Below are positions 24,864-40,669 of a stretch of DNA of 64,000 bases, in pieces; within the stretch, counting starts at the first letter, position 1; each line of letters opens with the position of its first letter. The stretch covers positions 1-64,000 of the forward strand of contig PUHN01000002.1 of the NCBI GenBank assembly GCA_002967695.1, given 5' to 3'. A program made the translations under genes and the position numbers. The notes under the pieces were generated by a model. The model ran no database searches. It saw only the letters and a program-made list of their open reading frames with translations, and had not been told where the DNA came from. The stretch comes from Rhodobacteraceae bacterium WD3A24. Its GTDB lineage: Bacteria; Pseudomonadota; Alphaproteobacteria; Rhodobacterales; Rhodobacteraceae.

Positions 24864-24953
24864 GGAGACGTGGCCGAGCGGTCGAAGGCGCTCCCCTGCT
24901 AAGGGAGTAGACCCGAAAGGGTCTCGTGGGTTCGAATCCCATCGTCTCCGCCA
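24864..24953 (+). tRNA. tRNA-Ser (GCU anticodon)
   Basis: The 90-base gene folds as a class II tRNA. The acceptor GGAGACG (24864-24870) pairs with CGTCTCC (24943-24949), then G and an encoded CCA. The anticodon loop CTGCTAA gives anticodon GCT. A long variable arm (AGACCCGAAAGGGTCT) marks it as serine, and TTCGAATCC forms the T loop. A tyrosine integrase gene begins 175 bases downstream, so its 3' end is the likely attachment site of the island. Confidence 0.96.
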
Positions 24954-37173: not shown

Positions 37174-38751
37174 TTACTCCCGAAAGATCGATACCTTGTA
37201 GCCATATGGGCCCAACGCATCGATCCTCACCTGGTCGCCGGCGCGGGCGCCGTTTTGCTCGAAGAAGTCACCGACCCAACGTCGCTTGCGGAAGAGCTTC
37301 TTCGTTCCATCAATGTCGGTGATCGCGGGAGAACGGCCGCCCCAGTCGACTGTAACGGTCCGGGCAGCAGCCAAAGCCGCGTTCGAGCCCCCGATACAAT
37401 CATCGGGGAAGGCCGCCAAGATATCGCGCAGGTAGAAGTGGTTGTTGTTGATATTGCCCTGCGTGAGCGTGACATAACCAAGCACGATGCCGTCGGAAAA
37501 GCCTTCAGCAATCTCGTCCTTAGGCGAGCTGGACGTGACGGCGATCGATGATGCCGAAGAGGTGTGAGGAATGCCGTCGACCTTGTTGGCGCCTCCACCG
37601 GGTATCACAGAAGCTGGTGCTACGCGTGCGCTCTCTGCATGCAGGACGACCTCCGCGGCCGCGCGCGCGTCTTCGCCGGCGTCGTGGTGCTCGAATGACA
37701 GGCCGAGGTGGGTCTTCAGCGAGCCCAGCCCGTGGCCGCCATTTCCCTTCAGCTCAGGCCAGGCTCTTCGGGCGACGCTCACGCTGTCCAGCCAGTCCCA
37801 ATCCGGCTCGGGACGGTTGGAAGCAGAACATGCAGCGCGGATGGCGCTACGATCGAAGCCGGAATGCTGACATACCGTAAGTCCGCTGAGGGATTGCTCC
37901 AGCACAGGAAGCACCTGCTCGAAGGTGGGGGCACCCGAGACCATGCTGTTGGTAATCCCATGGATATGGGTAAACACCCAGCTGGACGTCTGCGGGTCGA
38001 CGTATGTCGCCCATGTCTCGATCGAGTTGTCCGGGCGCACGCAAGCTACGCCAATCTGGCAGATGCTCCCACGATCATGGTTCGCCGTTTCCACGTCGAG
38101 CGCCACGAACCGGAACGGTCCCTCGGGGAACGGTGGCGGGGAAGCCTGCCAGGGTGACCGGCTTTCGGCCATTGGCTGGAGGCCGAGGAAGCGTGCCTTC
38201 TGCCGATCGAGAGCCGCCCGCTCCGCGGCGCCGAAGCCGAGACGATGGACAACACGGTCCACGAGGTCGATCGGTTCCTCATAGGCATCCATTCCCCGGC
38301 GATTCCATGCGATCGCCTCCCTCGGCGCGAGCGCAATCACCTCCTGCGCCAGTCCGGCGATGTCGATGTCATCCGGTAGAGCCACCCAGACAGCCTTGCA
38401 GTATTCGGCGATGAACGCGTTGCGCAGCGCCTTCGCTATGTCTCCGTCCGCCCTTGTTTCCGGGTCGTTCCGTAGCCGCCACATTCGCCCCGTGTTATAC
38501 ATGCGCGAGAAGTAGTGGCTTGAGGTCTCGGAGCCGGTGCGGTGGCGCTGGTGGATACGCTTATACAGGGTCTCGTTGTTGGCGCGGGTCGAGCCGATGT
38601 AGCGGCGATCTCCCTGATGATCGACGAGGCCATAGATCCCACGGCAGTCCTTGGGGGCCATCGCAGTCGGCTGCGGCGTCGCCGCGAGAAGCTGTTCCAC
38701 GATCTCTTCGGCACGAGGAACCGCGGCCTTTCGGCGGAAGATATTCAGCAT
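37174..38751 (-). CDS. GIY-YIG nuclease / DEDDh exonuclease fusion with an extra C-terminal domain
   Basis: The 525-residue protein has three parts. Residues about 35-115 form a GIY-YIG nuclease domain (GIY at 38-40, YIG at 51-53). Residues about 212-372 form a DnaQ-type exonuclease with the DEDDh set readable as Asp219 and Glu221 (ALDVETA), Asp300 (HSGFDRS), and His356 with Asp361 (HHDAGEDA). Residues about 415-525 are a basic domain ending GDQVRIDALGPYGYKVSI that may be a pseudobarrel DNA-binding fold (weak inference). Cho/UvrC-like fusions of epsilon with GIY-YIG exist, but in the opposite order. It is a single-gene unit in an accessory region, so a repair, restriction or anti-element role is possible. 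Confidence 0.8.
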   Translation of the reverse strand: MLNIFRRKAAVPRAEEIVEQLLAATPQPTAMAPKDCRGIYGLVDHQGDRRYIGSTRANNETLYKRIHQRHRTGSETSSHYFSRMYNTGRMWRLRNDPETRADGDIAKALRNAFIAEYCKAVWVALPDDIDIAGLAQEVIALAPREAIAWNRRGMDAYEEPIDLVDRVVHRLGFGAAERAALDRQKARFLGLQPMAESRSPWQASPPPFPEGPFRFVALDVETANHDRGSICQIGVACVRPDNSIETWATYVDPQTSSWVFTHIHGITNSMVSGAPTFEQVLPVLEQSLSGLTVCQHSGFDRSAIRAACSASNRPEPDWDWLDSVSVARRAWPELKGNGGHGLGSLKTHLGLSFEHHDAGEDARAAAEVVLHAESARVAPASVIPGGGANKVDGIPHTSSASSIAVTSSSPKDEIAEGFSDGIVLGYVTLTQGNINNNHFYLRDILAAFPDDCIGGSNAALAAARTVTVDWGGRSPAITDIDGTKKLFRKRRWVGDFFEQNGARAGDQVRIDALGPYGYKVSIFRE

Positions 38752-38964: not shown

Positions 38965-39591
38965 TTAAGCCTGCTGCACCGACAACATCTCATCCGGCAA
39001 ATGCCGTTGCAACGCCGCCGCCGCGCTCCAGGGCGCGGTCAGCCACGTCTTCCAGTCCTGGGGATCGGTCAGGATGACCGGCATCGCCTTGGGATGGACC
39101 TCGGCGACCTCGGCGTTGGGCGCGCATGTCAGGAAGCCGTAGAGATCATCCGTCGTCTCACCCTCCTTGAGCTTGCGCACCGAGGTCCAGCGCGTCCAGA
39201 GGCCGGCAAAGGCGGCCGGGCGATCCTCGGGCAAGGAGAACCAGACATTGTGCCGGCCGCCGCGCGTGGCGTCGGGCTCGGCGAAGGCCGTGAACGGCAC
39301 GAGGCAGCGATGCTCGGGCCCCAGCCAGCGCCGCCAGTGCGGTGACTTCGTGTTGCGGATGTTGGTCACGCCGCGATCGGCCCGCTTGCCCTCGAGGAAC
39401 TGCGGCGGCGTCGGCATGCCCCAGCGGCCCATCACCAGCTCGCGCCCCTCTTCCCCCTGCCGGATGATCGGCGCGCGGTAGTCGGGGTAGATTCCAGGTT
39501 GCGGCGGCAGGTTGCCCAACCGGTCCACCGCGACATCGAAGAGCCGGCGCATCGCATCCTGTGCACTGGTCTGCGAATAGAGATTGCACAT
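38965..39591 (-). CDS. SOS response-associated peptidase (SRAP/YedK family)
   Basis: The 208-residue protein starts MCNLYSQT, giving the catalytic Cys2 that SRAP proteins expose after methionine removal and use to bond covalently to abasic sites in single-stranded DNA. Further signatures are MGRWGMPTPP, a TNIRNTKSPHWRRWL segment, and the late HPKAMPVIL with the conserved histidine. A GAGGAG ribosome binding site sits 7 bases before this ATG. Upstream sequence is open in the same frame without a stop (see the next entry), but translation from there would bury Cys2. A LexA box lies at 39924-39938, so SOS induction is likely. Confidence 0.92.
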   Translation of the reverse strand: MCNLYSQTSAQDAMRRLFDVAVDRLGNLPPQPGIYPDYRAPIIRQGEEGRELVMGRWGMPTPPQFLEGKRADRGVTNIRNTKSPHWRRWLGPEHRCLVPFTAFAEPDATRGGRHNVWFSLPEDRPAAFAGLWTRWTSVRKLKEGETTDDLYGFLTCAPNAEVAEVHPKAMPVILTDPQDWKTWLTAPWSAAAALQRHLPDEMLSVQQA

Positions 39592-39918
39592 CGACTTCTC
39601 CTCATCGCGGCCGAAGGGAAGGAATGGCGAGCGATAGGTTGGCCCAAGGGTCCCGTCAGCCAGGATGAGCGTCGGGAACGCCTCGAGAAAGTGGCAGGCA
39701 TCGTCGAGCGCGCGGAAATGAACCGCTACGGCGTCGCCGATCAGGTTCCTGGCCGGGTGCCAAGCATACTCCGCCGCGCCGATCTCGCGGTCAAGCCAGC
39801 GATGCGGGTCGTTCCAAGGCCCTAGCACGGCGAATCCTTCATCGGGCACCAGCACCCTGATCCTGATCGGGAAGGCGGCCTCGTCGATCTTGCTCTGCGA
39901 TGGGGATCGGTGTGACAC
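39592..39918 (-). CDS. Open frame upstream of SRAP, in phase and without its own stop
   Basis: From a GTG at 39918, about 109 codons read a coherent protein (RIRVLVPDEGFAVLGPWND, then a DREIGAAEYAWHPARN segment) and continue straight into the SRAP frame. I recognise it as like a small hypothetical often placed before SRAP genes in Rhodobacteraceae, normally a separate gene. Either its stop codon was lost, giving a fusion by read-through, or the two are translated separately from one message. The start is 6 bases from the LexA box, with no clear ribosome binding site. Confidence 0.5.
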
Positions 39919-39923
39919 GGTGA

Positions 39924-39938
39924 GAACAATAGTAGAAC
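39924..39938 (-). promoter_or_regulatory. LexA (SOS) box, alphaproteobacterial type
   Basis: On the minus strand it reads GTTC-TACTATT-GTTC, an exact match to the direct-repeat GTTC-N7-GTTC operator of alphaproteobacterial LexA. It ends 6 bases upstream of the GTG that opens the SRAP transcription unit. Confidence 0.8.
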
Positions 39939-40669
39939 ATATCGCGGGAGTGAAGGGGGAGCTCACCGACGGTCGCGATGCGCCATGGCATGGCACCGCT
40001 GGGTTGATGCGCGGTTACATCACTCGGAAATTTGGTTGCGCATCCTTAACATTTGGGGTTGCATGGCTCGGGAAATTTGGTTGACAGGGTTGAAACTGCC
40101 GCTTGTCGCGCCAAGTGTGTCAATTTTGCAACAAACGCCGAATCCTGTAAACTGTTGAATTGCAATATCTATTTTTCCGCCATCTGAGAGATGGTTGACA
40201 TAAGTTGACACATTCAAGCATCACGATGTTTTTACCTGAGAATTCGGCTCAAACTTGGCCGCAGATGCGGCCGTGAGTAGGCCTCTGAGACCGTGTTTGC
40301 GGCGTATGAGCTCAACGACGATACAGGGCTGTCAGGCCCAGGCCTGATTGGCGTCGGCCGCGCCTCAAATGTGACCAGGAGCATGTTCGCTGAAGATGCA
40401 GCAGGGGACGGGGACCACGTCACTGCACTATCATGGAGCCAAGGATGCGGAGGCTGGCGGCGCGCGCCGTCGTGCAATCATTCAGCCGCAGGTGGCCAGA
40501 GCTCCGCTCATGTGCAGGAACGACGACCAGCCAATGCGTGGCTGTCGACGCCTTGACTGCACCCTCGTCCACGCGGCAGCCTCACCAGAGGGGGCTGGTG
40601 TATAGCAGGAAACGGGCACGAACGGCACACACGGCGCCGAGCGTGCGTTCAGCTCCGGGAAAGGCGCAC
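39939..40669. other. 731-base non-coding stretch with an AT-rich core and short repeats
   Basis: No supported gene lies here. From about 40020 to 40260 the GC content drops sharply. Three imperfect 22-23-base tandem units of the type GGAAATTTGGTTGCGCAT occupy 40026-40092. The motif GTTGACA occurs twice within 15 bases near 40193. The rest (40260-40669) shows only shadow frames. Confidence 0.5.
40026..40092. repeat. Three imperfect 22-23-base tandem repeats
   Basis: Units start at 40026, 40048 and 40071. The first and third share GGAAATTTGGTTG exactly, and the middle one is diverged (AACATTTGGGGTTG). They lie at the edge of the AT-rich pocket, as iterons or operator arrays often do. Confidence 0.5.

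Follow-up and report, generated by a model that had tools for sequence, protein, structure and literature searches.

The gene at positions 37174 to 38751 (reverse strand) of the 64,000-nucleotide stretch of DNA that we analysed, hereafter the window, encodes a GIY-YIG nuclease domain, a DEDDh exonuclease domain and a predicted B3-type DNA-recognition domain in one chain. Proteins of this layout form a real, recurrent and mobile family of multi-domain nucleases that is restriction-like by its anatomy. On balance, we lean toward the view that these are restriction-like endo/exonucleases that are DNA-targeted and move among alphaproteobacteria as passengers on integrative elements and plasmids.

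A three-domain protein encoded by one gene

The features discussed below all lie on the reverse strand; the basis of each is given in brackets.

37174..38751, reverse strand: coding sequence of the GIY-YIG / DEDDh exonuclease / B3-like fusion, 525 aa (open reading frame, homologues of the same layout)
38176..38721, reverse strand: GIY-YIG nuclease domain, residues about 11-192, with GIY at 38-40, YIG at 51-53, R65 and N150 (sub-threshold Pfam match, hhalign, model)
38347..38349, reverse strand: codon GCG for Ala135, at the position of the GIY-YIG catalytic Glu (Glu in 35 of 35 aligned relatives)
37624..38118, reverse strand: DEDDh 3'-5' exonuclease domain, residues 212-376, with D219, E221, D300, H356 and D361 (Pfam RNase_T, fold, residues)
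37498..37620, reverse strand: disordered linker, residues 378-418 (pLDDT under 50)
37177..37494, reverse strand: predicted B3 / EcoRII-N-like DNA-recognition pseudobarrel, residues 420-525 (model, Foldseek and VIA matches)

The reading frame starts with an ATG at 38751 and its stop codon ends at 37174. The preliminary description of this DNA had proposed the order GIY-YIG, DEDDh exonuclease, third folded domain. The Pfam RNase_T match and an AlphaFold2 model of the whole protein (pLDDT 84), made up of three ordered domains with residues 378-418 as a disordered linker, bear this order out. The layout is not due to chance because it was found again in many species. When the window copy was compared to the copy at locus L040, identity was 75-84% across the domains versus 25% in the linker, and dN/dS was 0.13, 0.09 and 0.16 for the three domains versus 0.54 for the linker. 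The fusion protein has no second match in its own genome at E<=0.001; three other GIY-YIG matches are present there, two of them above the Pfam cut-off. We found no description of the combination in the literature searched, as judged from titles and the openings of abstracts.

The exonuclease domain retains its catalytic residues

Pfam RNase_T spans residues 216-368 of the window protein (E 4e-14, over the cut-off), and the profile matched all 36 family members. The catalytic residues D219, E221, D300, H356 and D361 are all intact in the window copy, and they are invariant across the 36 aligned proteins except for one D300E substitution. The closest fold match was S. aureus DinG (Z 19.0, rmsd 2.7, 163 aligned residues). 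Pol III epsilon (Z 18.2), the DnaQ domain of S. thermophilus DGCC 7710 (Z 17.0), a structure that we take to be a Cas2 fusion, and Cap18 (Z 15.8) were also matched. Cap18 and Cas2-DnaQ are accessory exonucleases that share the DEDDh fold with the window protein; presumably both belong to defence settings, have neither a GIY-YIG nor a B3 domain, and are joined to partners other than those of the fusion. The PADLOC candidate PDC-S48 has its exonuclease in common with the fusion, and no description of it was found in the literature searched.

The GIY-YIG domain of the window copy lacks the conserved glutamate

The N-terminal domain falls short in a plain Pfam search: GIY-YIG (PF01541) matched the window protein at E 2.3 with 9 bits, below the cut-off of 22.6. 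Of the 36 members, 14 matched at E<=1 (best 0.041), and a standalone GIY-YIG relative reached 6.4e-4 and 20.4 bits, still under that cut-off. We then compared profiles. An hhalign comparison of a family profile, built from the 36 members and four standalone relatives, with a profile of 27 alphaproteobacterial GIY-YIG stretches gave P 88% and an E-value of 3e-6 that is valid for this one comparison only, versus 0.3% for the reversed control. Subsets of the target gave weaker matches (UvrC-only P 65%, non-UvrC P 70%). A sequence-only search of this region against solved structures gave no link, the best UvrC match having an E of 1.5, and the displayed matches of the whole-protein fold search were taken up by the exonuclease domain. 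In the model, the region has strands at 37-43, 49-54 and 119-125 and helices at 62-72, 97-117 and 131-141. Y40, Y51, G53, R65 and N150 are invariant in all 36 aligned proteins.

Position 135 is Ala in the window copy and Glu in all 35 aligned relatives. In a forced, low-confidence profile alignment, residue 135 lies opposite the conserved Glu of the UvrC stretch 'LLLE.NLIKKLKPRYN'. In the GIY-YIG superfamily, it is this Glu that binds the catalytic metal. The preliminary description had called every key residue of the two nuclease folds readable, which is incorrect: Y40, Y51, G53, R65, N150 and the exonuclease residues are present, and Glu135 is replaced by Ala. The residue pattern, with Glu kept by every one of the 35 relatives, qualifies the family as GIY-YIG and marks the window copy as an apparently derived member, whose GIY-YIG is probably impaired given Ala135. 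The domain is otherwise still constrained, as its dN/dS of 0.13 shows, so the loss of Glu135 may be recent or the fold may have kept a DNA-binding role. The Ala135 copy would be a natural separation-of-function case.

The C-terminal domain has a predicted B3 fold

The C-terminal domain had been described as a possible DNA-binding pseudobarrel. We modelled it alone from 24 sequences (pLDDT 89, pTM 0.80) and searched the model with Foldseek and VIA. The top VIA matches were B3 domains and restriction-enzyme recognition domains, aligned over nearly the whole domain. The best were NGA1 (Z 9.8, rmsd 3.1, 101 aligned), VAL1 (9.7) and FUS3 (9.7); the restriction enzymes were LlaJI.R1 (Z 9.0, rmsd 2.6, 95 aligned), BfiI (7.5), NgoAVII (6.9) and EcoRII (5.5). 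Scores dropped to 4.5 at rank 25 and other folds began at 4.5 or lower; a family missing from the VIA lists was not taken as excluded. The best Foldseek E-value was a modest 2.5e-3, and the first 23 matches were all B3 domains or B3-containing chains. The B3-type matches support the earlier reading: the region is, by its model, a pseudobarrel of the DNA-binding type (B3/EcoRII-N fold). A UvrC-like C-terminus was considered and rejected: Pfam and NCBIfam gave no UvrC match there, and the fold searches returned B3 domains.

The recognition domains of LlaJI.R1 and EcoRII are B3-like pseudobarrels as well. They are presumably fused to effectors unlike those of the window protein, McrB-type in LlaJI and PD-(D/E)XK in EcoRII. 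BfiI, NgoAVII and CglI have a comparable layout, in which one or more nuclease domains are likewise followed by a C-terminal B3-type recognition domain, with a fold match over about the whole domain. According to the sections of PMC4267653 consulted, the nuclease of these enzymes is of the PLD type, and the B3 domains of CglI and NgoAVII are proposed to bind the recognition sequence. The fusion differs from BfiI/NgoAVII-type enzymes in having GIY-YIG and RNase_T (Pfam) domains instead of a PLD nuclease.

The family is scattered, and its tails vary

The GIY-YIG and exonuclease pair was found in 4 of 198 genomes of the family Rhodobacteraceae, including the window's own. A scan of one genome per species gave 49 loci with the GIY-YIG domain. 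The record titles are alphaproteobacterial save one, an Exiguobacterium profundum MAG (L068, CP059262.1); its copy is of the alphaproteobacterial type, and the record looks mislabelled. A B3 stretch follows the core in 35 of the 49 loci, in five of them in another frame or as a separate ORF; the gene is interrupted in one of the 35 (L047). Ten untruncated loci have no B3 stretch: six have other tails, L044 has no tail, and three are standalone GIY-YIG genes. The remaining four are broken or ended by a contig edge. One alternative tail ends in 'WRRPN..GNWGIV' (L050, L052, L059 and the plasmid copy L031), and a third kind is found in L078, L080 and L082. Tail-less forms were considered as an architecture of their own and mostly rejected: in L042, L057, L061, L076 and L087 a B3 stretch lies directly after the core in another frame or ORF, leaving L044 as the sole form with neither a tail nor B3.

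On a core tree of 37 proteins, in which several forks are weak, the distribution of tails requires 5 changes if frame-shifted B3 is taken as B3, or 9 if it is counted apart, versus a minimum of 3. This excess indicates that tails have apparently been exchanged or lost more than once. Copies from Acetobacter, Pannonibacter and Oricola are interspersed among Rhodobacterales copies on the tree, and fusion copies also occur on plasmids. The fusion gene is scattered in its distribution and has moved horizontally. Standalone GIY-YIG relatives occur in Sphingomonadales; one of them (L086) is the last gene in a run that starts with a DrmD-type helicase, and L034 and L088 look similar. An empty-site comparison with four genus mates aligned no flanks, and one of these genomes (G582) was matched by the exonuclease part only.

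Without the fusion, the B3 module lies in Hma-like and restriction-modification loci

We wondered where the B3 module occurs outside the fusion. It is rare, being present in 3 of 385 genomes of the class, including the window's own. All seven loci that were opened and have B3 without the fusion are either Hma-like operons (three) or restriction-modification settings (four, two of them assigned by eye). In the first Hma-like operon, B3 is fused to an ASCH-like domain (L035:4281-5135) between HmaA and HmaB (E 0 for both). In the second (L094:7674-8444), B3 stands alone behind an ASCH-like gene, among relatives of the HmaA (58%), HmaB (52%) and ATPase (40%) of L035. The third lies on one of two Bradyrhizobium plasmids (L096:5453-6333), again with B3 behind an ASCH-like gene; its HmaA and HmaB are 77% and 67% identical to those of L035, and its ATPase matches PADLOC TmtA, not an Hma model. 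The restriction-modification settings comprise an island with HsdR and HsdM (L095); a 246-aa B3-like protein (L158:7698-8438, in the genome shared with L043) behind HsdM/HsdS-like genes, assigned by eye, with an HsdR-like gene (tblastn 1.8e-32); a B3/ASCH-like fusion between a type III-like modification gene and its helicase-looking pair (L036:8070-8900, by eye); and a shortened B3 stretch near recombinase, methylase and restriction-like genes (L157, by eye). In L158, the gene for the B3-like protein directly follows the HsdS-like gene of the type I restriction operon, which would suit an additional recognition component.

In the parts consulted, PMC8565338 proposes Hma as a defence system, and PMC12839542 classes Hma with the BREX-related systems and mentions that another protein of these systems is found fused to an ASCH 'reader'. 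In the operons described here, the B3 module is accompanied by an ASCH-like domain or by a separate ASCH-like gene and lies among HmaA and HmaB or their near relatives in this DUF499-centred, BREX-related system (same parts of PMC8565338 and PMC12839542). Whether fused or encoded separately, the small proteins of ASCH-like and B3-like type that recur in these operons and at one restriction-modification-looking locus are candidate target-recognition subunits of Hma. In the fusion, B3 is joined to nucleases instead, and no Hma gene was recognised beside the window copy: HmaA, HmaB and the partial ATPase of L035 had no match in the 64-kb window (tblastn, E<=1e-5), and none was seen in ten Pfam-scanned neighbours.

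We also looked for defence genes beside the fusion itself. PADLOC matched a CBASS-type patatin (L043), a DUF262-like gene (L049), Vsr and a cytosine methylase directly behind the fusion (L075), and PDC-S37 (L046); the ten neighbour proteins scanned were partly chosen by eye as suspicious, and not all of them enter the following count. Among nearest downstream genes of at least 200 aa, sampled at 18 of the 49 loci by contig extent, 6 of 18 had a defence hit (PADLOC, E<=1e-8) versus 2 of the 16 controls scanned out of 18, which is not significant (one-sided hypergeometric p about 0.15, calculated by hand). Two of the six hits, TniQ (L053) and an HNH-type gene (L040), are weak markers, and the models hit in the two controls are generic ones (HTH and ABC-ATPase). 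The excess of defence genes is suggestive only, and we therefore claim no enrichment. In the neighbourhoods inspected, no companion methyltransferase was seen to recur next to the fusion. The preliminary description had raised a defence or anti-plasmid nuclease. The homes of the B3 module speak for this idea, whereas the direct neighbours of the fusion give it no significant support.

A proposed restriction-like mode of action

Because its B3 reader domain lies otherwise among anti-phage and restriction genes, the fusion family probably finds and destroys foreign DNA. The further B3 loci raised our confidence in the restriction-like reading from evenly balanced to slightly favorable. We infer the following order of events. 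The B3 domain at the C-terminus would bind its target, either a given DNA sequence or a modification mark. Close to this site, the GIY-YIG domain at the N-terminus would nick or cut the bound DNA, and the DEDDh domain would then degrade it from the 3' ends laid bare, which would prevent resealing of the break. A helix-turn-helix-like partner, encoded upstream in about half of the loci, is a probable regulator or control protein. With Ala in place of the GIY-YIG Glu, the cutting activity of the window copy is probably poor or absent, and its main action may be that of a DNA-targeted exonuclease. Several points speak against the restriction-like reading. The window copy has neither the GIY-YIG Glu nor the partner gene, and no defence island was recognised among its scanned neighbours; the GIY-YIG assignment is under the Pfam cut-off and weaker against the subsets. 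The ten untruncated loci that have no B3 stretch, the lack of a recurring companion methyltransferase and the non-significant count of downstream defence hits also count against it.

The wH-GIY-YIG type IV restriction enzymes Ahi29725I and Apa233I likewise fuse GIY-YIG to a DNA reader; their reader is a winged helix for N6-methyladenine, in an architecture without an exonuclease or B3 (PMC11037411, sections consulted). None of the CglI/NgoAVII or wH-GIY-YIG enzymes is described with an exonuclease domain of its own in the sections of PMC4267653 and PMC11037411 that were covered. A tentative extension, which we consider possible and rather doubtful, is that the family is a new restriction class. 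A single mobile polypeptide would combine target recognition by an exchangeable C-terminal reader (B3 or one of the two unnamed tail domains), endonucleolytic cutting by GIY-YIG and destruction of the product by DEDDh. A small DNA-binding control protein would be encoded ahead of it, and its B3 reader would be common to Hma and restriction-modification operons. Such a class would need no methyltransferase, perhaps because the enzyme reads a foreign modification. If our reading is right, the fusion would be a compact 'find, cut and degrade' enzyme with a naturally exchangeable reader domain. A single shared recognition module would then link Hma/BREX-related operons, type I restriction loci and the classic B3 restriction enzymes, and the B3 domain of Hma loci would be a candidate target-recognition part.

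Genomic setting and alternative explanations

The fusion had been placed in an accessory, gene-poor setting and likened to a single-gene system. The setting is indeed accessory: the homologues are accessory and mobile genes, not housekeeping repair genes. 'Gene-poor' is loose, as ordinary genes flank the fusion on both sides: a SRAP gene upstream and LuxR-type, OmpA-type, MerR and cation-efflux genes downstream. Among the ten neighbours scanned, there is no recognised defence island, helicase or methylase.

The strongest alternative, which we judge to be unlikely and yet the best of those considered, is that the fusion serves the mobile element itself, as a weapon or maintenance function in competitor exclusion, element mobility or homing-like spread, and not the host in phage defence. 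Signs of mobility are consistent with this. A tRNA-Ser lies 0.4 kb upstream of the fusion in three of the 39 loci scanned (L063, L071, L072), a possible attachment-site hotspot. Ten of the 49 loci have a tyrosine integrase of one cluster (assigned by eye) no more than 10 kb away; this count leaves out L089, a second copy of the contig of L064. The copies on plasmids point the same way, as do a standalone GIY-YIG relative between structural-looking genes of a phage contig (L090:9998-10564, IMG/VR) and the broken copies L047, L073, L083 and L084. However, the B3 module is otherwise at home in Hma-like and restriction-modification loci, and no single integrase family is tied to most of the loci. 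A tRNA-Ser(gct) is present in the window at 24864-24953, 12 kb from the fusion. A tRNA-Gly site at L073, read from a spurious ORF, proved wrong; ARAGORN gives tRNA-Asn at this place.

The restriction-like reading was also weighed against a role in DNA repair or recombination, in which GIY-YIG would incise and the exonuclease resect damaged or branched DNA. UvrC and Cho share the GIY-YIG fold and a similar motif spacing with the fusion, the spacing being UvrC-like in the forced alignment, and epsilon-Cho fusions have an exonuclease and GIY-YIG in one chain, in the opposite domain order according to the preliminary description. The exonuclease fold is nearest to DinG and Pol III epsilon, a SRAP gene lies directly upstream in the window, and in L085 a standalone relative comes after a gene that by eye resembles RmuC. 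On the other hand, the fusion has no UvrC C-terminal half (Pfam, NCBIfam) and ends in a predicted B3 recognition fold instead. It is also a patchy, mobile gene present in 4 of 198 family genomes, and no tblastn match to the window SRAP was found in any of the 49 loci. A housekeeping repair operon was not seen; by eye, the immediate context varies among the loci viewed. We consider a repair role improbable. The SRAP gene (HMCES/YedK-type, 38965-39996, reverse strand, Pfam 8.5e-25) has a second copy in the genome (G000:C108:66174-66774) with 95% DNA identity over 0.6 kb, and would be a recent duplication or a mobile copy.

The upstream partner, of about 320 aa, brings in a third alternative: a toxin-antitoxin or abortive-infection system in which it restrains the nuclease until infection, when the DNA of the cell itself is attacked. 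The partner was called helix-turn-helix-like by eye, with no Pfam match over the cut-off in the three copies scanned. It is full length or nearly so in 24 of the 49 loci, and in nearly all of these the gap between its end and the start of the nuclease gene is about 30 nt at most, or the two genes overlap by a few nt; L087 is the exception (about 0.4 kb). The fusion is thus often not a single-gene system, although it fits that description in the window and in the 20 loci where the partner is absent; a further five have a partial partner. Its absence from so many loci argues against a toxin-antitoxin system, since a toxin without its antitoxin should not persist, and we regard this explanation as quite improbable.

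Least probable is that the fusion is an accessory of CRISPR adaptation whose DEDDh domain trims prespacers. In favour of this, the PADLOC CRISPR-associated DEDDh model matches at 1.7e-25, the DGCC 7710 DnaQ domain is among the fold matches, and two of the 49 loci (L080 and L082, near-identical copies) have a cas1-like gene no more than 10 kb away. Against it, the fusion has no Cas2 domain (Pfam), and a tblastn search with that cas1-like protein, the one cas1 type sought, gave no match in the window or the remaining 47 loci. By eye, a set of genes resembling a type I-E cas operon (L039:297-5981) is found upstream of the copy from Jhaorihella, and the cas1-like gene of this set is also present upstream of the copy in L082.

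Two further genes recur downstream of the fusion. One, with the sequence 'MAERNDIS.LLAFI...', is conserved behind several Paracoccus/Rhodobacter-type copies (L054:11704-12522, L064:11672-13012, L065:7871-9217); a Pfam scan of the L054 copy gave no match over the cut-off. The other, a gene of about 1960 aa, lies directly downstream of two closely related copies (L046:11825-17716 and L048:8564-14452) and matches PADLOC PDC-S37, with E 0 for L046.
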